From NCBI GenBank assembly GCA_903845365.1, contig CAIMXI010000161.1, forward strand, positions 1 to 45,458: a stretch of DNA of 45,458 nt, written 5' to 3'. Source of the stretch: an uncultured Geobacteraceae bacterium. Lineage in GTDB: Bacteria > Desulfobacterota > Desulfuromonadia > Geobacterales > Pseudopelobacteraceae. Of the stretch, positions 105 through 22,919 are shown piece after piece. Below the pieces are notes generated by a model that saw only the letters and a program-made list of their open reading frames with translations, was not told the DNA's origin and ran no database searches. The translations under genes were made by a program, and so were the position numbers. Positions within the stretch are counted from its first letter, which is position 1, and each line of letters opens with the position of its first letter.

Positions 105-287
105 TTATTCATCTTTAACTCCTGTTTTGCTGGTTGATTTTACAGCGGCAGAGCCTGAAAAGCCGATTGCACAACCGATGGCAAGAGCAATAAGAGGGGC
201 GGCGATGCCTATAATTACGACCCCAAGGGCGCACGCACCGACAATTACTCCGGCATAAAGAAGCGCTTTTTTCCATGAGACAGGCAT
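105..287 (-). CDS. small hydrophobic membrane protein, 60 aa
   Basis: The product begins MPVSWKKALLYAG and has two adjacent hydrophobic stretches (about residues 10-26 and 26-42) that are rich in Gly, Ala, Ile and Val, so a short membrane hairpin is likely. A basic, Ser/Thr-rich tail follows. The start at 287 was chosen because an AAGGGGGG ribosome-binding site lies just upstream; a longer reading frame runs back to 386 but has no such site and would overlap the preceding gene. It is the last complete gene of the magnetosome cluster before the contig edge. I recognise no family. By size and composition it resembles the many small magnetosome membrane proteins, which is only an inference from context. 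Confidence 0.6.
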   Translation of the reverse strand: MPVSWKKALLYAGVIVGACALGVVIIGIAAPLIALAIGCAIGFSGSAAVKSTSKTGVKDE

Positions 288-301
288 GATACCCCCCTTG
301 C

Positions 302-604
302 TTATAACACGATTTTCAACAGGTTGGCGTGATTGAATTTTACTATATGCTCCGGAGCCAGGGCGTGTATCAGATCGGTCATCCATTCCCGTGAAGTATG
401 AATCCTGCTGATTTTTACACCACTGTCTTCCCCGGTTCTGATTTCATAATGTCCAATGTGAATCTGCAGCGGCGAGGCTTCGCCGCGCAGCAGGACCTCC
501 AGATCTATAGTCTTGTCCTCGGAGTTAATATCGAGCTTGAGCATTTGACCAAACCTCTCCATCTTGATGTTGAATATACGCCTGATTATTGATTTCGTAA
601 TCAT
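302..604 (-). CDS. unknown soluble protein, 100 aa
   Basis: A mixed, soluble-looking protein starting MITKSIIRRIFNIKMERFG. It alternates charged and beta-prone segments, with no membrane segment, signal peptide or cysteine cluster. I do not recognise the family. The ATG at 604 was preferred because AAGGG lies 7 nt upstream; an in-frame TTG at 637 would overlap the stop codon of the preceding gene by 4 nt and is a possible alternative. It sits between a glycine-zipper membrane protein and a small hydrophobic protein, in the downstream part of the magnetosome cluster, and is probably co-transcribed with them. Confidence 0.55.
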   Translation of the reverse strand: MITKSIIRRIFNIKMERFGQMLKLDINSEDKTIDLEVLLRGEASPLQIHIGHYEIRTGEDSGVKISRIHTSREWMTDLIHALAPEHIVKFNHANLLKIVL

Positions 605-633
605 GCTGGAGCCCTTATTCCACACGCCTCCCT

Positions 634-1101
634 TCAAGCTTTCATGCGGGTAAGTATTTCGAGCGTGGTATTGATCTCCGCAAGCTCTTCCTTGAACTGA
701 TCTTCATGCTTAATCAGGCGTGCCTGAATATCGCAGATTTTTTTCACCGCCACTCCAAGCGCGGCGGTTTTAATGGTTTTTTTCCGAATATTTGCCAGCG
801 TGTAGCCGGCAACCCCCAGGGCGGCAACAGGAGCGGCGAGAACGCCGACACCGACCAGCATCCCTCCGCCGATCAGACCGCCGGCAGCAGCCAACCCTGT
901 TGTGACTCCGGCAGCGGAGAGCCCGGCAACAGTACCAAGTGACGACAACGCTGCAATCGAGCCGACCGCACCGGCGCCGGCGCCAACGGAGGCCGCTACC
1001 CCTTCCGTAATACCGGTATGAGTCTTTTCAAGCGTTTGCATAACCTCACGAATATCTTCAGTTGCCTCTTTTTTCATGCTTTCGATGGTAGATGGAGACA
1101 T
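634..1101 (-). CDS. glycine-zipper membrane protein, paralogue of 21938-22540
   Basis: A 155-aa protein with three parts. An N-terminal amphipathic helix carries the IREVMQTLEKTHTGITEG segment. A long Gly/Ala/Leu-rich hydrophobic core (about residues 40-105) follows, with dense GxxxG-type spacing and an APVAALG motif. A C-terminal helical segment ends EILTRMKA. The core suggests a tightly packed membrane hairpin or oligomer. It is clearly homologous along its length to the product at 21938-22540 at the other end of the same cluster. The start at 1101 has a strong AAGGAGG site; the frame is open back to 1149 but without support. Its hydrophobic Gly/Leu richness recalls magnetosome crystal-associated proteins (MamD/Mms6/MamG types), but I see no alignment that would justify such a name. 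Confidence 0.7.
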   Translation of the reverse strand: MSPSTIESMKKEATEDIREVMQTLEKTHTGITEGVAASVGAGAGAVGSIAALSSLGTVAGLSAAGVTTGLAAAGGLIGGGMLVGVGVLAAPVAALGVAGYTLANIRKKTIKTAALGVAVKKICDIQARLIKHEDQFKEELAEINTTLEILTRMKA

Positions 1102-1145
1102 GCTCTCCTCCTTAAAAGTATTTTTATTACCGTTTCTGCCTTGAC

Positions 1146-1379
1146 TCAATCAAGCATCTCATGAACTTTTTTCCAATAATAATAGCCGCCTATGACACCG
1201 ATACCGACAAGGCCGATAGGCCCCCAGACTCCCAGGCCAAGTCCAAGACCTAAGCAGAGCCCTTTTCCGGAGAGACCTGTTCCCACCGTCTTGCAGCATG
1301 TCGCCGCCTTGAATCCGGCGCCATGTCCCGCTTTATGTCCGGCGACAGTCATTGTACTTGGGCATTGTAGTTGTTGCAT
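1146..1379 (-). CDS. Mms6-like LG-repeat magnetosome protein (possibly Mad10-type)
   Basis: A 77-aa protein whose second half contains GKGLCLGLGLGLGVWGPIG and then a short hydrophobic stretch ending in a basic KK pair. This closely follows the Leu-Gly repeat and WGPI segment of the alphaproteobacterial crystal-shaping protein Mms6, as I remember it. In Mms6 the repeat embeds in the magnetosome membrane and an acidic C-terminal tail binds iron or magnetite. Here the tail is only KKVHEMLD, so the acidic cluster is nearly absent. The N-terminal half carries Cys6, two His and a CC pair (residues 28-29) that could bind metal. The start at 1379 has AAAGGAGAA upstream. The deltaproteobacterial protein Mad10 is the likeliest named relative, but I cannot confirm this without alignment. 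Confidence 0.75.
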   Translation of the reverse strand: MQQLQCPSTMTVAGHKAGHGAGFKAATCCKTVGTGLSGKGLCLGLGLGLGVWGPIGLVGIGVIGGYYYWKKVHEMLD

Positions 1380-1478: not shown

Positions 1479-2258
1479 TCAGTCGATATTTTTTTTGATG
1501 AGAGAAAACAGTAGCGCCGCCAATAGTGCCCATCCTATGGCGAGTACGCCGACCAAATGTCCAGTGCCGACTCCGCCGGCACCGTTTGTTTTTTCAATCT
1601 CAGCCTGGATATGAGCCGACTCCTGCCTGATCAGGGTGACATCAAGGCTGTGAAACATTGCGTGAAATCGGTTACGCAGTGAAAACAGTTTCATTTCAAG
1701 AGGATCAGTTTCAATCCCCTGGCTCTTCAAAACCGTGATCCTCTTTTCGATCGCTTTCAGCATCCTATCGGTCTTCACCATGGCTTTCCTGATCATGAGC
1801 GCCTTATCGAAGGTATGGCAACTGCTGCAGTTCTTCTTGTCGATCAGCGCCAGCGAGGCACTGACGATGGCATGGCTGCCGTGGCAGGTTACACAGGTCG
1901 GGCCACCTCTGCCTAGAGCGATGCCATGCGCGCTGTTCATGTAGTGCTTGGTGACCCCCATGTGGCAGCCGCCGCAGAGCGCCGGGATTGAGGTGGGGGG
2001 TGGAACACCCAGAAATCCGCTTGCCGGGCTCATGGAATTGGCCGCATTCATCGGGTCACCGCCATGACAGGCGTTGCAGGCGATGCCGTGATCGGAATGG
2101 ATACTGGTCTGCCAGAGCGTGACCGGTTTGCTTAAACGTCCAGGCTGCGCGGCATGGCACTGAATGCAGACGATTACCTGCGGGGCTACCGCCAAAGCCG
2201 CAGTTGACGGCATAGCGGAGAGAGCCAGCAGTATCAGGATGATTCGCCATCCCCTCAT
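1479..2258 (-). CDS. membrane-anchored pentaheme cytochrome c of a bc-type complex
   Basis: A 259-aa protein with a signal sequence (residues 1-24), five CxxCH haem sites (31-35, 61-65, 95-99, 122-126, 144-148) and spare histidines suited to bis-His ligation. A helical region of about 80 residues and a C-terminal membrane anchor (about 235-253) follow. It should face the periplasm or a periplasm-derived lumen. Its ATG overlaps the cytochrome b stop codon (ATGA), so translation is coupled. With cytochrome b and Rieske it forms a module in which this protein takes the place of cytochrome c1 or f as the Rieske electron acceptor; that role is inferred from gene order. An in-frame TTG at 2273 is a less likely start. 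The location inside the magnetosome operon is the unusual part. Confidence 0.85.
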   Translation of the reverse strand: MRGWRIILILLALSAMPSTAALAVAPQVIVCIQCHAAQPGRLSKPVTLWQTSIHSDHGIACNACHGGDPMNAANSMSPASGFLGVPPPTSIPALCGGCHMGVTKHYMNSAHGIALGRGGPTCVTCHGSHAIVSASLALIDKKNCSSCHTFDKALMIRKAMVKTDRMLKAIEKRITVLKSQGIETDPLEMKLFSLRNRFHAMFHSLDVTLIRQESAHIQAEIEKTNGAGGVGTGHLVGVLAIGWALLAALLFSLIKKNID

Positions 2259-3358
2259 GAGTAGAGACCCCAAAGCGTCATACCGATCCAGAGAAGGATT
2301 CCCCCGATAGCTGAGACGGTGAAAAGCGGCCTTTTGAGCGGGTGCTTCTCGGGGTCACGGTCGATAAACGGCAGGAACGCCAGAAAAGCCATGGCTGCCG
2401 CCTGTACCGTCAAACCGATGATTTCACTAGGGAAAAGTTTCAGTGTCTGATAGTTGGCCAGAAAGTACCACTCCGGCTTGATATTGGAAGGGGTGACGAG
2501 CGGATTCGCCGGAACGTATGAAATTGAAGGGATAAACATATCGGGGAAGAAAAACACAAACAGCATGAAGCAGGCGAGGTAGAGCGAGATGGAGATCATA
2601 TCCTGAAGAAAGAAGTTGGGGAAGAACGGAACGCCCCCCGGATGCTCTTCATATTCGAATGTTTTACCCTTCCACTGGTTTCTGCTGTCTTCAAGGCCAA
2701 AAGGGGGCGTGGAGACTCCCGTGCGCTGGATCAGGAAGAGATGGAGCCCGATCAGCACAGCGATAACAGCTGGGAGCATACCGACGTGCAGGGTGTAGAA
2801 GCGACCGATGGTATGGCTGCCGACCTGTTTGCCGCCACGCAGCATTTCGACGATGCTCTCTCCGAAAAATGGAATTGAGCTGACGCAGTCGGTGGCAACG
2901 GTTGTGGCCCAGAAGGAGAGCTGATTCCAGGGGAGGAGGTAGCCGGTCAGGGATATCCCCATTGCCAGGAGCAGAAGGATGAAGCCGGTGAGCCAGTGGA
3001 GTTCGCGGGGGCTTTTGTAGCTCCCCATAAACAGTATGGAAACCATGTGGAGCAGAAGCACCAGCAGCATCATGCTTGATCCGACGGCGTGGAACAGGCG
3101 CACCAGACGGCCAAGAGGGATTTCGGTCATGATAAATGAAACCGAATCAAAGGCTTTGTCGATGTCCGGCACGTAATAGAGCATCAAGAGCAGGCCGGTG
3201 ATCACCTGCAGGGCAAAAATCACCAGCAGGACACTGCCTAATGAATACCACGCGTTGACGTTGCGCGGCAGCAGATAGCCGGTGCGCTTCTCCGTTATGA
3301 TCTCGTGTGTGCCTAAGCGCACATCGATCCAGTTGTATATGCTTCTCAAAAATTCCAT
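2255..3358 (-). CDS. cytochrome b (b6/subunit IV fused type) of a quinol oxidoreductase
   Basis: A 367-aa polytopic membrane protein. Haem-ligand histidine pairs are visible at H90/H104 and H191/H206. The second-pair spacing of 15 matches b6-type rather than mitochondrial-type cytochrome b. A PEWY quinol-oxidation-site motif follows in NIKPEWYFLANYQ. The N-terminal haem half and the C-terminal subunit-IV-like half are in one chain. The expected reaction is oxidation of quinol in the membrane, with one electron going through the Rieske protein and one recycled across the haems. The gene follows rieske by 19 bp and overlaps the pentaheme cytochrome gene by 4 bp. Full-length and apparently intact. 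Confidence 0.92.
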   Translation of the reverse strand: MEFLRSIYNWIDVRLGTHEIITEKRTGYLLPRNVNAWYSLGSVLLVIFALQVITGLLLMLYYVPDIDKAFDSVSFIMTEIPLGRLVRLFHAVGSSMMLLVLLLHMVSILFMGSYKSPRELHWLTGFILLLLAMGISLTGYLLPWNQLSFWATTVATDCVSSIPFFGESIVEMLRGGKQVGSHTIGRFYTLHVGMLPAVIAVLIGLHLFLIQRTGVSTPPFGLEDSRNQWKGKTFEYEEHPGGVPFFPNFFLQDMISISLYLACFMLFVFFFPDMFIPSISYVPANPLVTPSNIKPEWYFLANYQTLKLFPSEIIGLTVQAAAMAFLAFLPFIDRDPEKHPLKRPLFTVSAIGGILLWIGMTLWGLYS

Positions 3359-3377: not shown

Positions 3378-3806
3378 TTATCCAATCGTTACCACGCCTT
3401 TCAGCACTGAGAAAGGTATCTTGGCCAGCCCCTTGGGGGGTGGGCCGGAGATTACTGCGCCATCAACGGTGAAATAGCCGGCATGGCAGGGGCAGAGAAA
3501 ATCCTGCTGCTCCGCTTGCCACAGCACGATGCATCCGAGATGTGGGCAGACGGCCGAAAGGGCAACCAGAGACCCGTCCTGCTTTCTGACCAGAACCGCA
3601 GCAGAGCCATTGAATTCAAAGAATTTGGCCTCCCCCGGCGCAATAGTGTTCAGAGGTATGCTGGTTTTACCTTTCCTGTTATTGTCATCCGGAGGTACCA
3701 GATAGAAACGGATGACCGGGTACGATACCGCGGCAAAGCCGATCACCGCGAGAGCTGCGACTCCGCCGAGGCAGGTATTGATGAATTTTCTCCTGCTGTC
3801 GTCCAT
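3378..3806 (-). CDS. Rieske iron-sulfur protein with Tat signal
   Basis: A 142-aa protein starting MDDSRRKFIN. The SRRKFI twin-arginine motif and following hydrophobic helix (residues 12-35) indicate Tat export with a retained membrane anchor. The two [2Fe-2S] boxes are CPHLGC (87-92) and CPCHAG (105-110), with C87, H89, C105 and H108 as cluster ligands and C92/C107 as the usual disulfide pair; all are present. The frame is open back to 3866, but that would overlap the upstream TauE gene by 46 bp; the ATG at 3806 has GGAAGAAG before it and lies 14 bp after that gene's stop. It should pass electrons from quinol to the pentaheme cytochrome encoded two genes downstream. Confidence 0.9.
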   Translation of the reverse strand: MDDSRRKFINTCLGGVAALAVIGFAAVSYPVIRFYLVPPDDNNRKGKTSIPLNTIAPGEAKFFEFNGSAAVLVRKQDGSLVALSAVCPHLGCIVLWQAEQQDFLCPCHAGYFTVDGAVISGPPPKGLAKIPFSVLKGVVTIG

Positions 3807-3820
3807 CAGTTCTTCTTCCA

Positions 3821-4723
3821 CTACATCACTCCGGTTACTAATTTCAAAGCGAGCATCAATAGACATATCGCAATAGCCCGCTTGATAAAACGGGGCTTGG
3901 TGGTTTTCGACAACTGTGCGCCGAAGTACGCGCCGAGTATGGCGCCGACGCCGATAAAAATGGCAAAGTCGAGGTCAATCTCATGCATGCCGGTAAAAAT
4001 AATCACAGCGAAAAAACTTGTTATCGCCAGGATGAAATGTGACGTTGCCGTGGCAATATGCACCGGCATGCCGAGTACCGAGTACATCAGCGGCACGTGG
4101 ATAATCCCCCCGCCGATTCCGAAGAGTCCGGAGAAAATGCCGGTAAAGAAACTCCCCGCAAGCCCAATGGCCATATCAGGCGCGTAGGCGTGCGTTTCAC
4201 CTTCGGCATCGACCAGCAACCGCTCTTTTGGCTGCTCGAGCGCCTTTGTTCTTACTATCGAAATATCCTTTTCAGTAAAGAGGTGAATCGACAGCAGAAT
4301 CAAGGTGATACTGAAAAAAATCGAAAAACTGGTAAAGGTAAAATGCTGGGCAACAACAGCGCCGATAAGAACACCGGGAACTGCAGCCGTCGCAAATTTG
4401 AGACCTATTTCGTAATCGATCCGCTGGTGCGTGATGTATGAAAACGTCCCTGACAGGGCATTCATAAAAACGGCTGTAATCGAGGTGCCGATTGCAAGCT
4501 GCGGTGAAAAATCAAAAAATATCATCAGCATCGGCACATGAATAAAGCCGCCTCCTGCCCCTATCAACGTGCCGATCAAGCCGACGACACAGCCGAAAAC
4601 GATAAGAAGTATCGCTTCAGGGAGGTCGGTAACTACGGCGTGTCCTTCAATTGCTACCGGGGACGCAAACGCGCTGCCGGCGATCAGGAGAAGTATGAGC
4701 ATCGGAACAATATACTTTTTCAT
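3821..4723 (-). CDS. TauE/SafE-family membrane transporter
   Basis: A 300-aa protein with an N-terminal signal-like helix (residues 1-20) and about eight membrane segments. It shows the duplicated TauE/SafE motif: GTLIGAGGGFIHVP in the first half and GLFGIGGGIIHVP in the second. Family members export or import small organic or sulfur anions. In magnetotactic bacteria a TauE-like domain also forms the C-terminal half of MamO, and stand-alone TauE proteins have been described in deltaproteobacterial magnetosome clusters. No MamO protease domain is encoded beside it here. It overlaps the upstream J-domain-like gene by 4 bp (ATGA). The substrate cannot be read from sequence. Confidence 0.85.
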   Translation of the reverse strand: MKKYIVPMLILLLIAGSAFASPVAIEGHAVVTDLPEAILLIVFGCVVGLIGTLIGAGGGFIHVPMLMIFFDFSPQLAIGTSITAVFMNALSGTFSYITHQRIDYEIGLKFATAAVPGVLIGAVVAQHFTFTSFSIFFSITLILLSIHLFTEKDISIVRTKALEQPKERLLVDAEGETHAYAPDMAIGLAGSFFTGIFSGLFGIGGGIIHVPLMYSVLGMPVHIATATSHFILAITSFFAVIIFTGMHEIDLDFAIFIGVGAILGAYFGAQLSKTTKPRFIKRAIAICLLMLALKLVTGVM

Positions 4724-5601
4724 GAAACCGCGTTTTCCATCCTCTTTACTAAATTGTGCGCGTTGATGCTCTGCTGAAAATATCTGGTCGCTTCTACTTT
4801 CTGAGCCTCGGATGCGAATTTGTCGGGATGAAACGCAACCTTGAAAAACTTAAATGCCCTCTCAACCGCAGCCGGGTCTGAGCTGTCATTTGTCCGGATA
4901 AAATGCAACCAGCTCTCGGCTAGCGAATCCGGTTTATCCGTCTGTTCACGAGACGAAAGAAGGCCAATTTCATTCAGCTCGATAATTTTCGCGCTGATAT
5001 CGACCATTTTAAGGCAGAGTTCATAGTATGTAAGATCGCCACGCTTCAGCTCATTTTCAACCAGTCCGACCTCCTGGCGGAGTACATCGGCGGCAAAGAG
5101 CAGTTCCGGATCCTGGATAGTCATCATTGTGGCGATGCGCCCCTGCAGACTCTTAACCAGAACCGAGAGCGCCGATTTCTTGTCCTCTTCGGCGGTGCGC
5201 AGTTTTGTGCGGAGCTCGCTCAACTGTTTGTCCGGTGAATTTTCTTCCATCACGACAATTTTATGGTTCAGCGCGCTGATCTCGGCGTCCAGTGCCGCTG
5301 ATTTCTGCTTCAGTTCTGCCAGTGTCAGATCGCGACCCTTGATGATCGCCTCAAGCATCGATTTTTCAGCGGCGAGCACGCTTGTTTTCTCGGCATTGCC
5401 TTCCAGGCAGATATATTTGCAGATCAGGAGGGCACCGGAAAATGCTGCGACAACCAGTCCGTACAAGGGAGAAATAGCCGCCAGGTAACCGGGCATAACT
5501 GCGGAGTACTGAGAGGCGGCGTATATCCAGAGAGCGACGCATAAAGCCGAGATGTAGGCGGCTGCATCTGTATACCCTGATGTAATAAACCTGTAGAGCA
5601 T
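4720..5601 (-). CDS. membrane-anchored coiled-coil protein with C-terminal J-domain-like HPD region
   Basis: A 293-aa protein. Two hydrophobic helices (about 13-31 and 41-65) are followed by a coiled coil (about 70-150), a helical linker and a C-terminal region (about 240-293). That region contains FKVAFHPDKF with the HPD tripeptide at 258-260 and a following amphipathic helix, as in DnaJ J-domains. J-domains stimulate the ATPase of Hsp70 chaperones. The N-terminal part of the J-domain is divergent, so this is a likely rather than certain call. The cytoplasmic side is inferred for the J-like domain. Its ATG lies 11 bp after the beta-propeller stop, and it overlaps tauE by 4 bp, so it belongs to the magnetosome operon. 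I do not recognise a named mam or mad gene. Confidence 0.7.
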   Translation of the reverse strand: MLYRFITSGYTDAAAYISALCVALWIYAASQYSAVMPGYLAAISPLYGLVVAAFSGALLICKYICLEGNAEKTSVLAAEKSMLEAIIKGRDLTLAELKQKSAALDAEISALNHKIVVMEENSPDKQLSELRTKLRTAEEDKKSALSVLVKSLQGRIATMMTIQDPELLFAADVLRQEVGLVENELKRGDLTYYELCLKMVDISAKIIELNEIGLLSSREQTDKPDSLAESWLHFIRTNDSSDPAAVERAFKFFKVAFHPDKFASEAQKVEATRYFQQSINAHNLVKRMENAVS

Positions 5602-5612
5602 ATACGTTCCGG

Positions 5613-6737
5613 CTACTGCGCCGCAGGATCTGCGGTCGGCTTCATCAGTTTGCTTTTCGTGGTACTGAAAAACCTGGTCAGGCTATGCAGTGCGCTTTTC
5701 AATCTGTTACGGTAGCCGATGTCGTAGACGCCTATCGTTCCGGAAGCGTACTGTACGTAGGCGCTTGTGCCGTCGGAACTTATCGTCACGTCGGAAGCCG
5801 GGGAAGTCAGCCCGATTGTCCTGCTGATTTTTCCGGAGGCGAGCTCGATGACCGCTATCTTCTGGGTATCGAGGAGGAAAAGCCCCCATTCGCCATGCGA
5901 TTCGATATCAAAAGCGGTAACGCCCTGCGTGGCAAGCTGGAAAAACCGTTTGACCGGCTCTGCGGCGGTTACGACGGAGAGCCCGCCAGCAGAGAGCCAG
6001 GCGTAGGTGGTGCCATCCAGACCCTTCTTGAAGAGGAGCGGCATGTCCGGGTCTAGCCCCCCTGCCATAGTGCGATTTTTCAGATCAAACAGAGAGAGTG
6101 TGTCGGACTGAAGAACATACTGCCCGTTGCCGTAATAGTAGGCTCGCGACGTCGGATTGCTCTTTTGCAGTATGGTGACCGTGTTCCCCTCTTTTATGTC
6201 GATTACCTTGATATAGGTTTCGCCGGTAACAAGAAGATATTTCCCAGCCGGATGCGGATCCAGCCAGAGTATCGGTTCCGGCTCATCAAGCTGCAGAATC
6301 TGTTTCCCGGTCGCCGCGTCAAAAAAGCCGATACTGCCGCTGTTATCAGCCTTCATCCCCCCCGCCACTACGATGGAAGAGGCCGGTACGAAACGGAGCG
6401 AGAACACCTGAAACCCCGCGCCGCCGTCAATTTCATGAAGCGGTGCTGTTTCGGGGAGTTGCCAGACCATGATGACGTCGTCTGATGCGGCAGCGGTCAG
6501 ATTGTATGGCGCGTTATAATCAACTACGACCTCTCCGGTAAGCCCGGCCAAGGTCGCTGACGGTTTCTTAGAAATTGAGATGCCGCGAAAACTGCTCTTT
6601 CCTGTTGCGCTTTTTGCTGCGCCTGGTCCGCGTGATCCGCGTGATCCAAAGAGGGTGCTCAGATCGTACTTGGCGGCTACGACGAGCGCTGTCACTAAAA
6701 AACATACAAAAAACAGATATTTGACTATCTGGTTCAT
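5613..6737 (-). CDS. membrane-anchored WD40/YVTN-like beta-propeller protein
   Basis: A 374-aa protein with one N-terminal membrane helix (about 5-24), a Gly/Ser/Arg-rich linker, and then repeated four-strand-like units. These include AAASDDVIMVWQLPE, IGFFDAATGKQILQL, IKVIDIKEGNTVTIL and IAVIELASGKISRTI, the pattern of WD40 or YVTN propeller blades. Such folds are protein-binding platforms; no catalytic residues are evident. With a single N-terminal anchor the propeller probably lies on the periplasmic or magnetosome-lumen side. The ATG overlaps the mamQ stop by 4 bp and the stop is 11 bp before the J-domain-like gene. Function is unknown; assembly of magnetosome membrane proteins is a guess from context. 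Confidence 0.75.
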   Translation of the reverse strand: MNQIVKYLFFVCFLVTALVVAAKYDLSTLFGSRGSRGPGAAKSATGKSSFRGISISKKPSATLAGLTGEVVVDYNAPYNLTAAASDDVIMVWQLPETAPLHEIDGGAGFQVFSLRFVPASSIVVAGGMKADNSGSIGFFDAATGKQILQLDEPEPILWLDPHPAGKYLLVTGETYIKVIDIKEGNTVTILQKSNPTSRAYYYGNGQYVLQSDTLSLFDLKNRTMAGGLDPDMPLLFKKGLDGTTYAWLSAGGLSVVTAAEPVKRFFQLATQGVTAFDIESHGEWGLFLLDTQKIAVIELASGKISRTIGLTSPASDVTISSDGTSAYVQYASGTIGVYDIGYRNRLKSALHSLTRFFSTTKSKLMKPTADPAAQ

Positions 6738-7441
6738 TTTACTGCAGCGGGCAGTTTGACTGTTTTTTCAGCTTTGTCAGCAATAAACGTTTTTGCATGC
6801 CTGAAGCCAAGCGGATATGCAAAGAAAAATCCGGGAACCAGTTCGAGGCTTGTATTGTAGATATTGGCTGCCGTGTTATATTTTGCCCGCGCCATAGCAA
6901 GCCTCGTCTCGGTATTGGCAAGTTCATTCATCAGGTTCTGGTATGTCACGGATGATTTCAGATCGGGGTAATTTTCCGCAACCGCCTGGAATTTGGAGAT
7001 GGCCGTTTTGAAGTTGGTGAGGGTCTGCATATCAACCGGCAGTGAGGTGCTGTCAGCGGTCAAATCCTTCAGCGAACCTAAGGCGCTCCGGACATCGGCG
7101 GCATGCACAAAGACCTTCCCCTCATACTGCATATACTCGGCGACCGCCTTGACAAGCCCAGGGATGAGATCACTCCTCCGCTGCAGCTCAGCTTCTATCT
7201 GCGCAGACTCAAGGTGCACCATAAACAGCTTGGTTGTGAACATGTTATAGTAATAGACGGAACCGGAGATGAACAGGAGGGTTAATGACATAATGGCAAT
7301 CTTTGCCGCAACATTCTGCTTGTCCCATGCCTTGCTCTTGATTTTTTTCAAGAGAGTGCGCGGCTTATCCCTTAACATTACCGGTTTGGGGGTAATGAGC
7401 TTCAACTCTTCGGCGTACAGTCTTTCAATAACATCTTTCAA
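6734..7441 (-). CDS. mamQ: MamQ, LemA-family magnetosome membrane protein
   Basis: A 235-aa LemA-like protein. A cytoplasmic basic N-terminus is followed by one membrane helix (about 47-66) and a helical bundle. The family motifs are visible: RRSDLIPGLVKAVAEY, YPDLKSSVTYQNLMNEL and a TRLAMARAKYNTAANIYN segment. MamQ is required for magnetosome membrane formation in Magnetospirillum, though its biochemical action is unknown. The start is TTG at 7441 with AAAGGG about 9 nt upstream, and it lies 6 bp after mamE. It overlaps the propeller gene by 4 bp. A second, more divergent LemA protein lies at 11912-12469; this one is the better match to MamQ by length and position beside mamE. Confidence 0.82.
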   Translation of the reverse strand: MKDVIERLYAEELKLITPKPVMLRDKPRTLLKKIKSKAWDKQNVAAKIAIMSLTLLFISGSVYYYNMFTTKLFMVHLESAQIEAELQRRSDLIPGLVKAVAEYMQYEGKVFVHAADVRSALGSLKDLTADSTSLPVDMQTLTNFKTAISKFQAVAENYPDLKSSVTYQNLMNELANTETRLAMARAKYNTAANIYNTSLELVPGFFFAYPLGFRHAKTFIADKAEKTVKLPAAVK

Positions 7442-9616: not shown

Positions 9617-9675
9617 CAGCGACTCCTATTCAACTTTCAGTAGTTTTCTGAGACGACATCAGCGACTCCTATTCA
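9590..9675. repeat. perfect 43-bp tandem duplication across the mamE start
   Basis: Positions 9590-9632 and 9633-9675 are identical. On the minus strand each copy holds the mamE ribosome-binding site, the ATG and the first nine codons. The upstream copy therefore encodes a 9-residue leader, MSSQKTTES, from 9659, ending at a TGA that overlaps the next copy's ribosome-binding region. The mamI stop lies inside the upstream copy. Confidence 0.95.
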
Positions 9676-9902: not shown

Positions 9903-9935
9903 ACCATCTCCCATGCAACTTTATTTTGTATGCAA

Positions 9936-15634: not shown

Positions 15635-15895
15635 TTACTCTATGCTCTTTTCAACGCTTTTTTCAACAAGCTGCTGGCTCTTCCTCGCTTTCCGCACCTT
15701 TTTATAGAGCCAGAGAACTCCTATGGTTGCGAGCACTCCGACCAGCATACTTCCTACAATTATGGAACTTAGCCCAATCGGGCGCGGATCACCGAGAATA
15801 ATTTTGACCGGAACAGGAGTACCGTTCTGATCTAGGAACAGAACGGCAAAGAAGAGGGTAATAACCGTAGTAAAAAATATAACTTTTTTTTGCAT
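15635..15895 (-). CDS. mamL: MamL-like (LapA-domain) magnetosome membrane protein
   Basis: An 86-aa protein with two membrane helices (about 5-20 and 42-64) joined by NGTPVPVKIILGDPRPIGLS. This is the LapA-domain layout (N-x-x-P-V followed by a hydrophobic strand). A basic tail, KKVRKARKSQQ, follows. MamL shares this architecture and is needed for magnetosome membrane formation; its basic tail is thought to interact with the membrane. Length and context among mamP, mamM and mamK support the name, but sequence identity in so short a protein is limited, so LapA-family is the safer level. Confidence 0.75.
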   Translation of the reverse strand: MQKKVIFFTTVITLFFAVLFLDQNGTPVPVKIILGDPRPIGLSSIIVGSMLVGVLATIGVLWLYKKVRKARKSQQLVEKSVEKSIE

Positions 15896-15935: not shown

Positions 15936-16145
15936 CTACTCTTTCTTTATCCCTTTTAAAAACCCGATCGCGCAGCCGGTCAAGCCAAACGCCTTTAGTA
16001 CCAGCAGAGCCGGGATGGCAACCTCGGCTGCCGCCGCTGCGACTACCAGACTTATCCCTGTAACTACACCGACGCCCAAACCGGCGGCTGTTTTGCCAAA
16101 AATAGTGCAGGCTGTATGAATATTTTCCTCAGTTGTAGGATTCAA
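15936..16145 (-). CDS. small hydrophobic protein, paralogue of 20955-21224
   Basis: A 69-aa protein with an N-terminal ENIHTACTIFGK segment, then one long hydrophobic Gly/Ala/Val region (about 18-62) containing GISLVVAAAAAEVAIPALL, and a basic end GFLKGIKKE. It matches the product at 20955-21224 almost residue for residue across this span. It uses a TTG start (16143-16145) with AAAGGAGG 5 nt upstream; no ATG is available in frame. Both copies lie in the magnetosome cluster. It could be a magnetosome membrane protein such as a distant MamC or MamF counterpart, but I see no diagnostic motif. Confidence 0.7.
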   Translation of the reverse strand: MNPTTEENIHTACTIFGKTAAGLGVGVVTGISLVVAAAAAEVAIPALLVLKAFGLTGCAIGFLKGIKKE

Positions 16146-16172: not shown

Positions 16173-16946
16173 TTAATTACCAAGCAGCAAGATATGCTCA
16201 AGCCGGACCTTGTCGCCATGCTCAAGTAACTTGCACTTATATTCAAGTAATTTGCCGGTCTCTTTGAGGCAGATCCCGGTCAAAATATCACTCAGGCTCG
16301 AGATATCGTCGAGATAAATAAATGTGCCGTCAGTCTCGCTGGCCATCCATCGGAAACTGGATTCGGTCTCATGGATGTTGTTGCAGAGGATCGGATAAAT
16401 TTTGATCCCTTTGGCTTTGATGGCCGCAACTTCCTGCCGGTAATCTTTCATCCGCGCACAGCCCCTGAAGCTGTCGATGACACCATGGGCAGGCTTATCT
16501 CCTACCAGCACAATCGCTTTTGGTGTTCTTGACAGACCCCAGTCCAGATTGACGGCATCATATAACGCACATTCGACCGCTTCGGCATCGTTGCCCCCCA
16601 CGCCGATATGCAGATCTGGCGAACGGAGGAAATCCACCATCTCTTTTTTATCAAAAGTGAGCGGTAGTATTTTGGTCAGATAAAATTCATTCTCCCCTTC
16701 GTCACCATGATCCTTATAGGCGACGATGCCCATCCTCACCCCCTGGGAATACTCGAACACATCCTCCATGATTTTAAGAATATTATCCCGCACTTCATGA
16801 ATGTAAGGTTCCATGCTGCCGGTGGTATCGATGGCAAAAACCACATCGAGTGATGATTCTACAAATAAGCGGCCACTTTTTAGATGACTTTCCCGTTCAC
16901 TCATCTCCTTGACCAGCCGGGCTTTTTTCGCTTCAACTGTTTCCAT
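16173..16946 (-). CDS. von Willebrand factor A domain protein
   Basis: A 257-aa soluble protein. The VWA fold is shown by DVVFAIDTTGSMEPYI with the metal-site motif DTTGS (residues 40-44), a GVGGNDAEAVECAL segment that would supply the third loop, and AIVLVGDKPAHG. This DTTGSM variant is typical of the alpha-kinase-associated VWA group. No signal peptide or membrane helix is seen, so it should be cytoplasmic. It lies after the large repeat protein, separated by a 195-bp gap, and 27 bp upstream of the TTG-start small hydrophobic gene. The role is unknown; protein docking on the magnetosome surface is a guess. Confidence 0.75.
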   Translation of the reverse strand: METVEAKKARLVKEMSERESHLKSGRLFVESSLDVVFAIDTTGSMEPYIHEVRDNILKIMEDVFEYSQGVRMGIVAYKDHGDEGENEFYLTKILPLTFDKKEMVDFLRSPDLHIGVGGNDAEAVECALYDAVNLDWGLSRTPKAIVLVGDKPAHGVIDSFRGCARMKDYRQEVAAIKAKGIKIYPILCNNIHETESSFRWMASETDGTFIYLDDISSLSDILTGICLKETGKLLEYKCKLLEHGDKVRLEHILLLGN

Positions 16947-17141: not shown

Positions 17142-19532
17142 TTAATCTTCCGTAGTCAACTTGCGCTTTTTGATGCTCTCTTTTACTGAAGTAGCTAAAG
17201 CCTCTTTCTCTCCGGAAAGGAGAGCATTTCTGCGCTTACTCAGCTTTTTAAAGTAGTCCGTCGCATCCAGCTCTTCTGGCTCTTCTACTTCCGGTTTCTC
17301 TGCTTCCGGCTCAGCAAGCTCTTCCGTGGCAGACGGTGTCTCATGACCTTCGAGAATCTCGTTCAGTTTATATTTCTCGACGTCATCTGCATGCAGGGTG
17401 CTGGCTACAGTCTCAATCTCTTCCCTGGTCGGAGGGGCGGGAGTTTCTACAGGAACCGGAGTTAGTATGGAAAATTGATTCCGGAATAATCTGGTGCGAA
17501 AGCCCGATCCTGATTCCTCTTTTACGAAGGCATCCGGTCGTAACCCTGGGATAATGGGTGGGTGATCCGAAACTACGCCATCGGCATCGACAGGCGCTGA
17601 CGGCACAGCCCCCACTTCAGCAGACGTCTCGGCGGTCTCTTCAGGCGCGGCAACCGCAGCGGCATTCTCAGGGAGTTCCTCTGATGCCGCTTCTACAGGC
17701 GATTCTGGCGAGGTCTCCAACTCATCATGCAGCGCTGGAGCCGCTTCCTCAGCTACAACCGCTTCCGCAGCTTCGGCTTCCAGAGCGCTCTCCTGCGGCA
17801 CTTCGACCGCAGCGGCAGCCGTAACCGTGGCTGGTTCATGAACCCTGAATACCTCCTCAGCTTCAGGCACCGGAACAAATGGCGGGTGTTCTACTGAGGC
17901 TACATGCGACACCCTGAAATCTTCCGCATCTTTATGACTGCTCTCAGGCACTGTCTCGGCAGGAAGATCCGTTGTTGCCACTGCCAGCTCTTCTTCAACA
18001 GCAGGCTCTGCAATCAGTTCATCAGCAGCGGTCACTGCTTCCTCGATGACTGGCTCAGCAGCGGCAAGATCTTCCTCTATTTCGTGGACGACCGCCTTGA
18101 TATCTTCTTCTGTTGGCTGCGGCATGACTGGTGGGGGAATATCGGGCCATTTTGTTCTGCTGTAAACGTATGGGGTGCTCCCCTCTTCAGGGTCGATGCC
18201 AGAGAGTTCGGTCAATTTAGCTACAGACTCCAGAGTTGGAGCACTCACTGTCACACGGATTTTTGATGGTTCGCCCTCTGCGTGAGCGGACGTTGCGGAA
18301 ACAGCCTTAATAACAGCGCTCTCTGTTACAGGGTGTGCTGCGGAAGCATCGACAGCATCGACAGCCTCAGCTGCAACCGGCGATTCAACCGCAACTTCTT
18401 CGAGTATCGGCTCGTCCTTCGCGGCTGAGATAGCCTCGGCTGCAACTGTTGATACCGCCGGAGTTTCTTCAGTTACCGGCTCATCCTTCGCAGGTGCGGC
18501 AGCGTCTTTCGCAGGTTTTGGAGCTGGCTTCGCCGGTGCTGCTGCTGCGGCCTTCGCCTTCTCCGCTTTGCCAACGGGCGAAAGCTCGGCTTTACGCTGG
18601 TTCAGGGTGGCGACTTCAGCTTTAAGTTCATTAATTTTTGCAACAAGTGCAACTACCGGCGCGGCGGTGATGGCCTCAGCAGGATCCGGGTATTTTACCG
18701 ATTCCTTGGCAACCTCCAGATAGAGACCTTGTATTTTTTTGTCACATTCTGCAAGTTTGCGCTCAATGCCTGATTTTTCACCCGGCAGGTACCCAGAGAC
18801 CGATTCCGCTATGGCGTGAATAAAAAACTTCGCGACTCCGGAAGATTCTGATGGCGCCTTTTTTACGTCTGGTTGCGCTTTCTTTTCCGCCGGTTTTTGC
18901 TTCTCCGGCTTTGGCTTCGGTTTGGCCAAATCGGCTAACTGAAGTTTTAATGAACTGATTTCGGCGTTAAGTTCATTGATCTTTGCATTAATGGCGGCAA
19001 CCGCACTGGAGTTGATTGCTTCAAAAGGATCGGGCTGTTTTGCGACTTCCCTGGCAAAATCAACGTAGAGCTGGCGTATCTTCTTTTCGTTGGCAAAAAT
19101 TTTCCTCTTTAGCCCCGCCTTTTCACCCGGCATAATTCCTGTTATCGATCGGGCAATCATGCAGGGTATTCCGCAAGGTTTCTCCTCCGGCTTTTTAACT
19201 CCCTTTATTGCATCGATCTCGGCAATGCGCTGCTTCATAGGCTCGATTTCTTTGTGAAGCTCCTTGATCGCAGTAAGGAGAGCCGTCACGGCTGTAGATT
19301 CGAGCGCTGCCGCAGGGTCTGCAAACTTTGAGGTTTCTTTTGCAATTCCGGCTGACAGTGCATTAATCTTCTTTTCCTGCTCTTTGATCCTCCCGGCAAG
19401 CTTTGATCTTTCGCTGGGTGACAACGCTGACATCGTGCAGTTAAAAGCAGCCGACCCGGCATCAAAAGCCGAAACAATTGCACAACCTCCCGCATTCATT
19501 GTTCGTGCAATCACGTTAATTAATACTGCCAT
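17142..19532 (-). CDS. large coiled-coil repeat protein with acidic Ala/Glu/Pro-rich region, next to mamK
   Basis: A 796-aa protein. Three homologous units of about 70 residues occur at 37-107, 133-203 and 247-317, each with a PGEKxG or SPSERS start, a KKIxxLY helix, a DPxEAI turn and a KINELxAEI helix. A long acidic region rich in Ala, Glu, Pro and Val follows (about 320-740), containing a repeated HPPxxP element. The protein ends in a basic helix (KKLSKRRNALLSGEKEA). An N-terminal segment with Cys17, Cys32 and hydrophobic residues may attach to a membrane. Its position directly after mamK, and its acidic low-complexity middle, resemble MamJ, which links magnetosomes to MamK; there is no evident sequence homology. 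Coiled-coil Mad proteins near mamK in other deltaproteobacteria are another comparison. Confidence 0.75.
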   Translation of the reverse strand: MAVLINVIARTMNAGGCAIVSAFDAGSAAFNCTMSALSPSERSKLAGRIKEQEKKINALSAGIAKETSKFADPAAALESTAVTALLTAIKELHKEIEPMKQRIAEIDAIKGVKKPEEKPCGIPCMIARSITGIMPGEKAGLKRKIFANEKKIRQLYVDFAREVAKQPDPFEAINSSAVAAINAKINELNAEISSLKLQLADLAKPKPKPEKQKPAEKKAQPDVKKAPSESSGVAKFFIHAIAESVSGYLPGEKSGIERKLAECDKKIQGLYLEVAKESVKYPDPAEAITAAPVVALVAKINELKAEVATLNQRKAELSPVGKAEKAKAAAAAPAKPAPKPAKDAAAPAKDEPVTEETPAVSTVAAEAISAAKDEPILEEVAVESPVAAEAVDAVDASAAHPVTESAVIKAVSATSAHAEGEPSKIRVTVSAPTLESVAKLTELSGIDPEEGSTPYVYSRTKWPDIPPPVMPQPTEEDIKAVVHEIEEDLAAAEPVIEEAVTAADELIAEPAVEEELAVATTDLPAETVPESSHKDAEDFRVSHVASVEHPPFVPVPEAEEVFRVHEPATVTAAAAVEVPQESALEAEAAEAVVAEEAAPALHDELETSPESPVEAASEELPENAAAVAAPEETAETSAEVGAVPSAPVDADGVVSDHPPIIPGLRPDAFVKEESGSGFRTRLFRNQFSILTPVPVETPAPPTREEIETVASTLHADDVEKYKLNEILEGHETPSATEELAEPEAEKPEVEEPEELDATDYFKKLSKRRNALLSGEKEALATSVKESIKKRKLTTED

Positions 19533-19644: not shown

Positions 19645-19678
19645 CTTGGTTGCTACCGCAATTACTCCACCATGTTAG

Positions 19679-20752
19679 TTATGGCTTATTTTCAGCTTTT
19701 TTCTGTTTCAGCTCGGCCCACAACTCATCAGGCGTATCCTTGGCATACATGAGAGCGCCGTTTGCGCCGGCATAGACAGGATCCGGAACCTTTCTGACAG
19801 TGCCGTACCCCAGTGACTCCTTCATATGTTTTTCCAGCTCTTCTCCAAGGCCGATTATCTGGCTCCCGCCGCCTGCAAGGACAATATTCTCTTTCAACTG
19901 ATCCTGGAATTCAGGATCGTATGTTGAGACAAGGTATTTGATTGCATCCGAAATTTCCGGAACTATGGCGGCGCACGCCTGCCGTAATTCGTCAGTCAAA
20001 TCCATTTCCGTCGGTTTTCCGCATACCGGCAGGGTAAGGATCAGCCTTTCATCGGTATCGGCGATCAACGCATGCTCTTCCTTAAACGAGCGAAGCATGT
20101 TTATGGTGTAATTCGCATCGGGGAATTTGGCATCCAGCAGGTCAAAAAAGACGTTGTCGATATAGTCACCCGCTTTATATGTCGTCAACTGATCTTCTTT
20201 CGTCGGATAGACTCCAGACATCCTGCAGAGGTCAACCGTCCCCCCTCCAATGTCGATGATGAGGGTGTTGTTCAGTAAATTCATACCGTACGCGACCGTA
20301 AAAGGTTCAGAGACTATCTGGGCGGCATCGAACAGAGATTCCGTCAAATCAAGCAGCGCCTGATTGTTGTTCTCGTTCGCAAGGGCGGGTGTACCGATGA
20401 CGGCTCGTATCAGATAATCCTGCGGCCTCCCCTGTGTTGCCAGGCCGATCAGATGCTTGAAGAGCAGTTGCGCCACCCAGGAGATATGCTGATAGTCAGC
20501 AAGATTTTCCTCCGCATGATCCGAATACTTCAGAACCCCCCGTTCAAGCGGGCGGAACACGTTACAGGACAAGCGGTTTTTAATCGCGTCGTCGCCAATC
20601 AGAAACTCCTTGCCAAGGAGCCTCCGTGAAATCATGTCCTTCGGGAATCCAACATAGCTCGGCACGCAGGCACGCACACCGTTATCAGCCGCGATCACAC
20701 TTATTGAGCTTCCAAAATCAATTCCGACGTTCATAACTTTCGGTTCACGCAT
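19679..20752 (-). CDS. mamK: MamK, actin-like magnetosome filament protein
   Basis: A 357-aa actin/Hsp70-fold ATPase. Visible motifs are the phosphate-1 loop GIDFGSSISV, the MamK-type segment VGFPKDMISRRLLGKEFLIG, the second phosphate loop IIDIGGGTVDLC, and the adenosine motif NIVLAGGGSQI. These agree closely with MamK rather than MreB or ParM. It polymerises into a cytoplasmic filament that positions the magnetosome chain. The ATG at 20752 follows AGGGGG. A 202-bp gap separates it from the upstream small hydrophobic gene and a hairpin follows the gene, so it may be partly a separate transcription unit. Confidence 0.93.
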   Translation of the reverse strand: MREPKVMNVGIDFGSSISVIAADNGVRACVPSYVGFPKDMISRRLLGKEFLIGDDAIKNRLSCNVFRPLERGVLKYSDHAEENLADYQHISWVAQLLFKHLIGLATQGRPQDYLIRAVIGTPALANENNNQALLDLTESLFDAAQIVSEPFTVAYGMNLLNNTLIIDIGGGTVDLCRMSGVYPTKEDQLTTYKAGDYIDNVFFDLLDAKFPDANYTINMLRSFKEEHALIADTDERLILTLPVCGKPTEMDLTDELRQACAAIVPEISDAIKYLVSTYDPEFQDQLKENIVLAGGGSQIIGLGEELEKHMKESLGYGTVRKVPDPVYAGANGALMYAKDTPDELWAELKQKKAENKP

Positions 20753-20954: not shown

Positions 20955-21224
20955 CTAATTTTTCTTGATCCCTTTTACAAATCCGAGCGCCCCACCAGTC
21001 AGGCCAAATGCCTTTAACAGCAATAATGCCGGCACGGCAACATCGGCGGCAGCGGCAGCGACAACCAGGCTGATGCCGCCAACGACTCCAATTCCCACGC
21101 CGGCCAACGCTTTGCCGACAATAGAGCAGGCGGTGTGAATGTTATCTTCCGCCGTATTTGTACGGCAGTAATGATTGACGATCTGTTTTGCCTCAGCACT
21201 TTTCTCTGTTGTTGCCGTTTCCAT
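20955..21224 (-). CDS. small hydrophobic protein, paralogue of 15936-16145
   Basis: An 89-aa protein. Compared with its paralogue it has an extra 20-residue charged N-terminus, then NIHTACSIVGKALAGVG, the hydrophobic stretch GISLVVAAAAADVAVPALL and the basic end GFVKGIKKN. The ATG lies 11 nt after the stop of the preceding gene, with GAGGTGA upstream. Its position before mamK at the promoter end of the cluster, with a second copy beside mamL, suggests a magnetosome membrane component present in two versions. No named family recognised. Confidence 0.7.
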   Translation of the reverse strand: METATTEKSAEAKQIVNHYCRTNTAEDNIHTACSIVGKALAGVGIGVVGGISLVVAAAAADVAVPALLLLKAFGLTGGALGFVKGIKKN

Positions 21225-21235
21225 TTCCGGTCACC

Positions 21236-21910
21236 TCATATATTTTCAAGTAGTACATCACTAATGATATCGCTTCCTGCCGTATCTTCGACCACAGGAT
21301 AAAATTCAGGCTCAAACCATCTGTTGAAGAGTGCAAAGGTTCTATTTTGTGGCCACTTTATATCGTCGATGCAGTACTGAAATAACTTCTCGGCAAAAAT
21401 GTCTGCATGAATCTGGTGAAGAATTTCATCTTTTTGCCGATTATCCTCAAACTCCGGGATCAGATACGCCTTGCAGCCTGTATTCAGATCTCTGATCGTG
21501 ATTTTACTTTTGCCCGGCAGCGAGGCAACCCAGTCCCTGAAAGGCTCTTTGGCTTTTATAATCAACAGGCTCCTGTTTACGGTCGTGATCTGCTTGTCCG
21601 TCTGGGACATTTTCACGGCAACAAAAGAGCTGTCATAACTATCGTGCATATATATTCTGCCGGTAAGGGTCTCGCCGGAACAGGTAAAGTTTCCGTAACC
21701 ACTGACCGGATATGATTCGTTGTTACCAACCCAGGTGAAGAGGTATCTGTCCTTAGCCTCCGTAATATCCATCTGGCCGTCAAAGCCGATGAAATGGAGC
21801 TTACCTTTTTTCCCTTTAATACTGATTCGGGCACGTTCCACCAGGGCGGTGGTATCGGTGCCTTCCCATATTTCCATCTCGACAATTTCATACAAGCCGT
21901 TAATCGGCAT
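21236..21910 (-). CDS. unknown protein with N-terminal beta-rich domain and C-terminal WPQNRT domain
   Basis: A 224-aa soluble protein. The first half (1-115) is beta-rich and lipocalin-like in feel. The second half (about 125-224) contains FRDWVASLPG, YLIPEFEDNRQKDEIL and WPQNRTFALFNRWFEPEF. The WPQNRT...WFExEF pattern is one I associate with small hypothetical proteins in environmental bacteria, with no function known to me. No signal peptide or membrane helix. It sits between the glycine-zipper gene and the small hydrophobic gene in the first transcription block of the magnetosome cluster. Confidence 0.6.
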   Translation of the reverse strand: MPINGLYEIVEMEIWEGTDTTALVERARISIKGKKGKLHFIGFDGQMDITEAKDRYLFTWVGNNESYPVSGYGNFTCSGETLTGRIYMHDSYDSSFVAVKMSQTDKQITTVNRSLLIIKAKEPFRDWVASLPGKSKITIRDLNTGCKAYLIPEFEDNRQKDEILHQIHADIFAEKLFQYCIDDIKWPQNRTFALFNRWFEPEFYPVVEDTAGSDIISDVLLENI

Positions 21911-21937
21911 ACTGCGCGCTCCGCTTATTCATCGTGA

Positions 21938-22540
21938 CTACTGTATTGCCTTCAAGCGAGTCAATATTTCAAGTATCGTTCTGATCTGCACCAGCTCTTC
22001 CCTGAAATGTTCTTTGTGCTGGATCAGTTGGGACTGAATCTCACAGATTTTTTTGGCACTCATGCCGATCGCAGCGGCTTTTTTTGCCTTCTGCCGTCTC
22101 TTGGCCAATCCGTAGCCGACCGCGCCCAGGGCTGCGACCGGAGCAGCTAAAACGCCAATACCCAAAAGTGCTCCACCCCCCAGCATACCGCCCGCAGCGG
22201 CAAGCCCAGTTTTTACTCCGGCGGCGGATAAGCCCGATACCGTACCCAGTGATGACATCGCCGTAAGCGAAGTAGCCGCGCCGGTTCCTGCGCCAAGAGC
22301 GGTTGCCAGTCCTTCGGTGATGCCGGCATGTTTATTCTCAAGATTCTGCAGAACATCTCGCAGGTCCTCCGCGGCCTTTGTCCTCAGACTCTCAACAATG
22401 GATGCCTTCATGGCCAGAGTCTCGACGCTTCTACCGGTGCTCGGCTTATCCACTTCTGCCAGTCTTTCAAAAAAAGGAGCCTTATTCACACCCAGCTTGT
22501 TGCTTGAAAAATCACTGCTTGTATCCACTCGCGCTGTCAT
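21938..22540 (-). CDS. glycine-zipper membrane protein, paralogue of 634-1101
   Basis: A 200-aa protein. It has a 50-residue charged N-terminal extension absent from its paralogue, then ESLRTKAAEDLRDVLQNLEN, a long Gly/Ala/Leu hydrophobic core (about 90-150, containing GLSAAGVKTGLAAAGGML), a basic KRRQKAKKAA patch and a C-terminal helix EILTRLKAIQ. The match to 634-1101 is strong throughout. AGGAGG precedes the ATG. It lies 10 bp after the cluster's first gene and may shape or line the magnetosome membrane; that is inferred only from composition and position. Confidence 0.7.
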   Translation of the reverse strand: MTARVDTSSDFSSNKLGVNKAPFFERLAEVDKPSTGRSVETLAMKASIVESLRTKAAEDLRDVLQNLENKHAGITEGLATALGAGTGAATSLTAMSSLGTVSGLSAAGVKTGLAAAGGMLGGGALLGIGVLAAPVAALGAVGYGLAKRRQKAKKAAAIGMSAKKICEIQSQLIQHKEHFREELVQIRTILEILTRLKAIQ

Positions 22541-22550
22541 TTCACACCTC

Positions 22551-22919
22551 CTATAAGAACTTTTTTTTCAGGCTCGAAATTGATGATTCACACTTCTTAA
22601 CTATTGAAGTAAACCGATCCTCCAGCCCGCTCGTCTGTTTTTTATGCTCTGCGATATCACGTTCAATCTCGTTAAACCTGGCGACAAGCTTCGTCAACGC
22701 TTCATCGCGACAGACCTCACTCTGCCCCTCACGTAACAGAACTGCAACCCGATCAATGATTTCGCCGGCAATCTTCTCCTTTTTGGAGGAGAGCGAGGTG
22801 ATGCCGTAGTTTGTGACAGCGCCCCTTGAAAACGCCATGGCAGAGTCTGCTGACTTTTGAACCACGCCAACAAAAATAGTGCCAACTTGCTGCAGGTTGC
22901 GTCTAAAGTCAATGTTCAT
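22551..22919 (-). CDS. helical protein, paralogue of 15203-15580; first gene of the cluster
   Basis: A 122-aa helical protein starting MNIDFRRNLQQVGTIFVGVV. It aligns with 15203-15580, sharing the N-terminal motif, an EGxSxxxxDxxLTKL segment and IERDIAEHKK; its C-terminus is basic (SSLKKKFL). AAGGAAGGG lies before the ATG. It is the most upstream gene of the minus-strand magnetosome cluster, with a 563-bp non-coding stretch ahead of it, so the cluster promoter is expected immediately upstream. No family outside the window recognised. Confidence 0.65.
   Translation of the reverse strand: MNIDFRRNLQQVGTIFVGVVQKSADSAMAFSRGAVTNYGITSLSSKKEKIAGEIIDRVAVLLREGQSEVCRDEALTKLVARFNEIERDIAEHKKQTSGLEDRFTSIVKKCESSISSLKKKFL

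Follow-up and report, generated by a model that had tools for sequence, protein, structure and literature searches.

A predicted man-type magnetosome gene cluster with a Rieske/cytochrome b operon in a relative of Geobacter

Does contig CAIMXI010000161.1 of an uncultured Geobacteraceae bacterium (assembly GCA_903845365.1) carry a genuine magnetosome gene cluster (MGC), and if so, which of its parts set it apart from the clusters already described? The window, by which we mean this entire contig of 45,458 nucleotides (C161 in our numbering; genomes are numbered G, contigs C and fetched loci L), belongs to a genome of 5.5 Mb in 511 contigs that is 99.6% complete and 3.1% contaminated. Between positions 105 and 22919 we took 31 open reading frames (ORFs; g01 to g31), all on the minus strand. 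They overlap at 12 of 30 junctions, six times by exactly 4 bp; the largest overlap, 85 bp, depends on the choice of start. A first-pass annotation of the same letters had proposed an MGC on one strand with many 4-bp overlaps in a Geobacter relative, and these claims were borne out by the analyses below.

Mam proteins were called with NCBIfam models, which have curated cut-offs, and domains with Pfam gathering scores. The cluster was found to contain mamA, B, E, I, K, M, P and Q, a second mamQ and a stand-alone TauE gene that corresponds to the C-terminal part of mamO. Two of the eight Mam proteins exceed the curated cut-off, namely the actin-like MamK (19679..20752; NF040964, 411 bits, cut-off 400) and the CDF transporter MamM (13131..14057; NF033615, 365.9 bits, cut-off 350). 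The other six match the models of their names below it: MamP (14039..15037; NF040965, 3e-62, 211 bits, cut-off 300), the CDF transporter MamB (11021..11893; NF033616, 7e-71, 239 bits, cut-off 350), the TPR protein MamA (9936..10577; NF040959, 4e-39, 134 bits, cut-off 200), MamQ (6734..7441; NF040966, 2e-26, 92.6 bits, cut-off 250), MamI (9669..9914; NF040963, 4e-19, 68.3 bits, cut-off 80) and MamE (7448..9616; NF040960, 3e-67, 228 bits, cut-off 800). MamP combines a PDZ domain with two stretches of the magnetochrome domain PF18509, which scores 47.8 against a gathering score of 30.4; in MamE the same domain reaches 18.9, below gathering. MamE is recognised by Pfam as a trypsin-like protease with two PDZ stretches and retains two CxxCH motifs (residues 365 and 417) and the H/D/S protease motifs, and the generic DegP model outscores NF040960 on it (307 versus 228 bits). 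MamQ-2 (11912..12469) matches the MamQ model at 1e-9 and is 29% identical to MamQ over 164 columns. The TauE/SafE membrane protein (3821..4723; PF01925, 7e-51) aligns with positions 536-647 of the MamO model (2e-12); this C-terminal TauE part of mamO alone is present, as with mamO-Cter of "Ca. Magnetomonas plexicatena" LBB01. All of the mam genes named at first pass were thus recovered except mamL, for which the 86-aa ORF g23 (15635..15895) offers a sub-threshold LapA match alone (PF06305, 2e-4).

MamQ is a LemA-like protein, and the first-pass annotation had allowed that the best matches might be ordinary LemA, CDF, TPR and HtrA proteins, with no magnetochromes and no tie to magnetosomes. This reading was ruled out, because MamK and MamM score above their curated cut-offs and magnetochromes are present in MamP; the match of MamQ to its own model runs the same way. 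Judged from its sequence, the stretch 105-22919 is a man-type MGC from a relative of Geobacter. In the window's genus, eight genomes have an MGC; five of them are metagenome-assembled genomes (MAGs) labelled Geobacteraceae and two are labelled Desulfuromonadales, and the CxxC-tailed regulator that had been cited as a Geobacter trait is real (26725-27351, from its translation).

Is the layout of the cluster new? The gene order is taken to differ from that of the Magnetospirillum mamAB operon. It runs mamO-Cter, two ORFs, mamQ, mamE, mamI, mamA, mad2, mamB, mamQ-2, mad31, mamM, mamP and three ORFs, with mamK further on, where the labels mad2, mad31, mad10 and man2 to man6 are assigned by gene position, not by reference sequences. 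The ORFs labelled in this way are g09 (4720..5601; man6/man5 region), which has no Pfam match and a C-terminus that looks J-domain-like by eye, and which recurs in six other primary clusters and in G121; g10 (5613..6737; man5/man4 region), a beta-propeller protein with WD40-type Pfam matches, all below gathering; Mad2 (10601..10999); the EcsC-like g18 (12445..13134; mad31; PF12787, 0.003, below gathering); the small g21 (15024..15206; man3), found in all eight other primary clusters and several second loci; g22 (15203..15580; mad10), without a Pfam match; and g23 (man2). The same core order has been printed by Uzun et al. 2022 for LBB01, a man-type member of the Nitrospirota (PMC9376291). The named mam genes of the window follow the printed sequence from mamO-Cter to mamK and the unnamed ones agree by place alone, with mad2, mamQ-2 and mad31 in the same places; the comparison is one of printed order, not of sequences. 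The core layout is therefore known, and a new gene layout was rejected for the core. The two clusters differ in that mad26-mad23 precede mamO-Cter in LBB01 and three man genes, rather than two ORFs, lie between mamO-Cter and mamQ there (PMC9376291), whereas the window has a Rieske/cytochrome b/cytochrome c operon and a GL-repeat protein after TauE, and extra genes near mamK (a von Willebrand factor A protein and a large acidic repeat protein). Transfer from Nitrospirota was inferred in the same paper.

The man-type core has also already been reported for MAGs of this genus (PMC7449369, PMC9376291). Uzun et al. 2020 list mam, mad and man genes in three MAGs of "UBA8499, Pelobacteraceae", of which MAG_13126_9_058 is our G009 and MAG_21600_9_004 our G023; the main text of that paper does not contain the word "cytochrome" (PMC7449369). 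Desulfovibrio magneticus RS-1 shares mad2, a stand-alone TauE needed for magnetite, and chains organised by coiled-coil proteins, but has an additional TauE fused to MamE (PMC4287615, PMC12748827); "rieske" occurs 0 times in PMC4287615 and "cytochrome" 0 times in PMC12748827. The literature searched, with subscription papers and supplements outside it, held no prior report of the in-cluster bc-type operon, the GL-repeat protein, the second mam loci described below or Mad2 as a di-haem b cytochrome. Thus, the suggestion of a little-described variant holds only in part, since the core order is known; what is unusual, and was absent from that suggestion, is the bc-type operon, the GL-repeat protein and the second mam loci.

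MamK was above its cut-off in nine of 117 genomes, the window's own included, eight of them in the window's genus and one (G051) in a sister genus, and a search with MamA (E <= 1e-40) retrieved the same eight of the 39 genomes of the genus. Within the Geobacter family, magnetosome genes were seen in MAGs only. The other primary clusters, over whatever part of this stretch their contigs cover, have an identical order from mamP to TauE, and the mamK end is variable.

Downstream of TauE lie the genes of a Rieske iron-sulfur protein (g07; 3378..3866), a cytochrome b (g06; 2255..3358) and a five-haem c-type cytochrome (g05; 1479..2273), followed by the GL-repeat protein. The Rieske protein has the cluster motif CPHLGC...CPCH and matches the NCBIfam b6f Rieske model at 1e-19, below cut-off. 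The cytochrome b unites the b6 and subunit IV parts in a single chain, with H-x13-H at 90 and H-x14-H at 191 supplying the four haem-b ligands and the Qo motif PEWY at 295, and its residues 3-363 match chain B of PDB 6kls (2e-66). The cytochrome c shows five CxxCH motifs and matches to PF14537 (Cytochrom_c3_2) and PF14522 (Cytochrome_C7); it had been described as PpcA-like, which did not hold, as it is part of the bc-type operon and no PpcA was found. The haem ligands and the Qo motif are kept in the eight full-length MGC cytochromes b (PEWY, with PEWF in two), and the Rieske cluster motif in ten of ten copies examined. The ratio of nonsynonymous to synonymous substitution rates (dN/dS), from two pairs each, was 0.09 for cytochrome b, 0.12-0.16 for the Rieske protein and 0.11-0.16 for cytochrome c.

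Seven of the nine MGC genomes (G000, G004, G009, G013, G020, G030 and G032) have the operon after TauE in their primary cluster, with a large repeat protein intervening in G009 and G032. The G023 contig stops at mamQ, and the best cytochrome b genome-wide is just 37% identical; the G051 contig stops at mamI, and no cytochrome b match was found anywhere in the genome. The family also has a non-MGC operon: all 21 of its loci that were fetched carry these three genes in this order and gave no mam-gene match within the stretches covered (mostly 6 kb), and a close cytochrome b of either type (E <= 1e-60) is present in 41 of 76 family genomes. The cytochromes b of the two types are 62-67% identical but fall into separate clades: in a tree of 53 rows, 10 MGC rows and 21 of the 36 family non-MGC copies lie on opposite sides of a branch with 100/100 support, with 22 database rows unlabelled and two short broken fragments (G030 C25, G004 C89) left out. 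A search of the phylum, with 395 genomes drawn evenly, yielded no further MGC-type cytochrome b; seven genomes reached E <= 1e-155, the window included, and the other six were 62-64% identical. In G009 and G032 both types coexist as separate copies, one in the MGC and one outside it. Loss of the non-MGC copy owing to the MGC copy was not supported, as the former is present in two of eight MGC genomes versus 15 of the 31 MGC-less genomes of the genus. In the portions available of PMC13343851 and PMC7604359, a Rieske protein is not placed in an MGC; subscription papers and supplements lay outside this search.

The operon was also found outside the class, in the cluster of G121. This genome is MAG_22309_dsfv_022 of the Desulfobulbales (PMC7449369); a passage of the 2022 paper places it in Desulfuromonadia and the other three MAGs in Desulfobulbia, which looks swapped (PMC9376291). 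On the G121 contig the cluster runs from the position of g22, at the contig start, through mamP, TauE and the bc-type operon to the GL-repeat protein, and mamK lies at the far end. In the cytochrome b tree, the database sequence P0140 lies inside the Geobacteraceae MGC clade, and the database MamP P0039 is identical to the MamP of G121. The operon in the G121 cluster and the placement of P0140 therefore point to a transfer of cluster and operon together between the two classes.

The GL-repeat protein that closes this segment (g04; 1146..1379) matches the NCBIfam models MamD (1e-10), Mms6 (6e-10) and MamG (7e-10), and nine of nine homologues match all three. Like Mms6, MamD and MamG it has a GL repeat followed by a WGP-type segment, here a GL run and an invariant WGP...GGYYYWKK tail. 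Unlike them, it has just 77 aa and stays under every curated cut-off, at 39-41 bits versus 100-200, so that the proposed likeness would be one of function only. According to PMC9376291 and PMC7602337, genes of the mms group have been recorded in Pseudomonadota, Nitrospinota and SAR324.

Mad2, encoded between MamA and MamB, is a protein of 132 aa for which a haem-binding role is suggested by four conserved histidines. His53, His67, His112 and His129 are all retained in 18 of 22 fetched copies (by eye), and the other four, all from second loci, retain His53 alone. Our alignment A1 holds 14 of the 22 copies and excludes these four, which lack three of the histidines; the 14 of 14 obtained from it thus reflects selection, and the representative counts are 18 of 22 and, among database homologues, 84 with all four histidines in the best 120 of 164. 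In 33 of the same best 120 of 164, which form one clade, His67 and His129 are lost jointly and His53 is kept. The AlphaFold2 model (pLDDT 85.5) has four main helices; His53 and His67, 14 residues apart, lie in the helix of residues 40-70, and the helix of residues 104-131 holds His112 and His129. The RS-1 mad2 mutants H101Y and G162S gave no magnetic response (PMC4287615), and the 61 residues between H101 and G162 equal the distance from His67 to Gly128 here. Taken as a whole, these observations suggest that Mad2 may be a transmembrane di-haem b cytochrome with two b haems across the membrane. In 15 of 17 long Mad2 homologues, however, the His/Gly spacing is one residue shorter. The structure search gave matches within the helical-bundle background, which point neither way, and a profile search of Mad2 versus cytochrome b gave no match. 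Mad2 as a sequence relative of cytochrome b was rejected, since the sequence and profile comparisons were negative. The predicted haem ligands are testable in RS-1.

Further mam genes, rearranged and several of them broken, are present in seven of the nine MGC genomes. A second mamM was found in G000, G004, G013, G020, G032 and G051 and a second mamP in G000, G004, G013, G020, G030 and G032, and G009 and G023 yielded no second mam copies. Within the genome of the window such loci lie on three short contigs (C28, C284 and C343). Stops interrupt the copies on G030 C25, genes on G004 C89 and G032 C236 are truncated, and parts of the bc-type operon recur beside second mam genes. The second MamM proteins are 59-71% identical to that of the window. 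Among the trees of MamE, MamM, MamB, MamI, Mad2 and MamP, a clean split into a primary and a second clade held for MamE only (support 96/98; G121, unlabelled, falls among the primary rows): MamM requires three changes, MamB, MamI and Mad2 two each, and the MamP split has support of 57/40. A second cluster for greigite was likewise unsupported: in these trees, which contain no greigite-type reference, the second genes are paralogues of the primary genes. Duplication of magnetosome genes is known from Alphaproteobacteria (PMC6819731). Beside the second mam loci we also observed genes for CZB-domain proteins, with PF13682 in four of four tested (L064 2379-2918, L067 5845-6369, L070 2255-2806 and L074 4579-5115).

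What might the operon do in this place? The electron route to and from magnetosome iron now involves the Geobacter family, the model for dissimilatory iron reduction, and a bc-type operon fixed inside an MGC is a candidate for the quinone-side partner. MamB and MamM import iron, and would do so here. The magnetosome lumen derives from the periplasm, the side to which a bc complex delivers electrons, and a quinol-fed complex would therefore be in a good position to poise the magnetochromes. An electron chain between the c-type cytochromes MamE and MamP has been proposed (PMC3840617), and that text, in the part available, names no quinone-side partner. We propose, with the chances put at about even, that a man-type MGC in a Geobacter relative is joined by an in-cluster operon which exchanges electrons between the menaquinone pool and MamP/MamE and thereby fixes the proportion of Fe(II) to Fe(III) from which magnetite forms. 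The Rieske/cytochrome b complex would sit in the magnetosome membrane, its own multihaem cytochrome c would meet MamP or MamE, the flow would be mainly from quinol to magnetochrome, and the mineral would be magnetite. Mad2 is predicted to carry two b haems across the same membrane. By analogy with MamJ and Mad10 (PMC12748827), the large acidic protein g26 is a candidate for the link between magnetosomes and filaments. A more far-reaching version, which we regard as rather unlikely, makes the magnetosome a respiratory compartment, in which a proton-pumping quinol-cytochrome c complex, kin to the respiratory operon of the family, would have been incorporated into the MGC and, with Mad2, would connect the menaquinone pool to MamP and MamE by a complete wire. 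It would have been duplicated along with the cluster and have moved with it from Geobacteraceae to Desulfobulbales.

It is quite possible, if less than probable, that the operon instead encodes an ordinary respiratory bc complex that is parked by the magnetosome genes and replaces the usual copy, with no role in the magnetosome. Its gene order is, after all, the same as in all 21 non-MGC loci, MGC-type copies are the only ones in five of the genus's eight MGC genomes, and the non-MGC copy appears dispensable anyway, given its presence in about half (15 of 31) of the MGC-less genomes. Against this reading, both types are kept in G009 and G032, and all seven genomes have the operon placed between TauE and the GL-repeat protein; it overlaps TauE by 46 bp in the window, occurs in the G121 cluster and recurs in parts beside second mam genes. 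That the cluster might be a silent or decaying relic in cells without magnetosomes would fit its presence in just eight of 39 genomes of the genus and the partly broken second copies, but the ORFs of the window are open, dN/dS is below 0.2 for MamM, MamK, Mad2 and the cytochrome operon in the pairs tested, and the mamP-to-TauE order is constant, which makes a relic highly improbable.

For the second loci, the rival to the duplication of genes within one organism is a binning artefact, by which contigs of a second related magnetotactic species would have entered the same bin. Such mixing is a real concern, although we hold it to be unlikely. The bins are large (G000 5.5 Mb, G020 5.9 Mb, G032 5.4 Mb), a gene that looks Ppx-like by eye on the second-mam contig C111 of G013 has a 94% twin on C69, two similar copies also occur in G000 (C10, C472) and G032 (C180, C23), and G013 and G004 have the isolate prefix E14 in common, so a shared contaminant is possible. 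On the other side, G004 and G013 pair in the primary as well as the second rows of the MamM, MamP, MamE and Mad2 trees, and a single 48-kb contig, G030 C5, carries both the primary cluster (21.2-45 kb) and a cassette of cytochrome c, mamQ, mad2 and CZB genes (6.1-9.1 kb). The latter therefore argues that the multiplicity is genuine at least in G030.

The remaining ORFs lie toward the two ends of the cluster. At the low-coordinate end are g01 (105..386), a small membrane ORF without a match in Pfam or NCBIfam, a homologue of which (65%) stands at the cluster end in G030; g02 (302..637), which adjoins g03 in G030, G020, G032 and G009; and the Gly/Ala-rich g03 (634..1149), also without a family match in Pfam or NCBIfam. 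Toward mamK follow the small Gly/Ala-rich g24 (15936..16145), the von Willebrand factor A protein g25 (16173..16946; PF00092, 3e-13) and g26 (17142..19532), an acidic protein of 796 aa that adjoins mamK. It has three repeats of about 70 aa each that are 36-51% identical, and residues 331-796 carry a net charge of -67; in some genomes its homologues adjoin mamK, and in G009 and G032 they separate TauE from the Rieske gene. Four ORFs close the cluster (20955..22919), of which g28, g30 and g31 are paralogues of in-cluster ORFs and g29 is unnamed. Three pairs of small proteins result, each with one copy inside the cluster and one at the mamK end: 634-1149 and 21938-22540 (62% over 156 aa), 15203-15580 and 22551-22919 (35%), and 15936-16145 and 20955-21224 (76% over 66 aa).

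Past 23483 the window contains ordinary genes, including an ABC transporter, uvrB and a DegP-type protease, as judged by eye from their translations. The ABC transporter and its substrate-binding protein (23483-26143) occupy the same place at the mamK end in G023 and G030, and in G009 a gene that appears by eye to encode a FeoB-like GTPase lies just past the cluster (L045, approximately 62500-64500 in G009 C11 coordinates).

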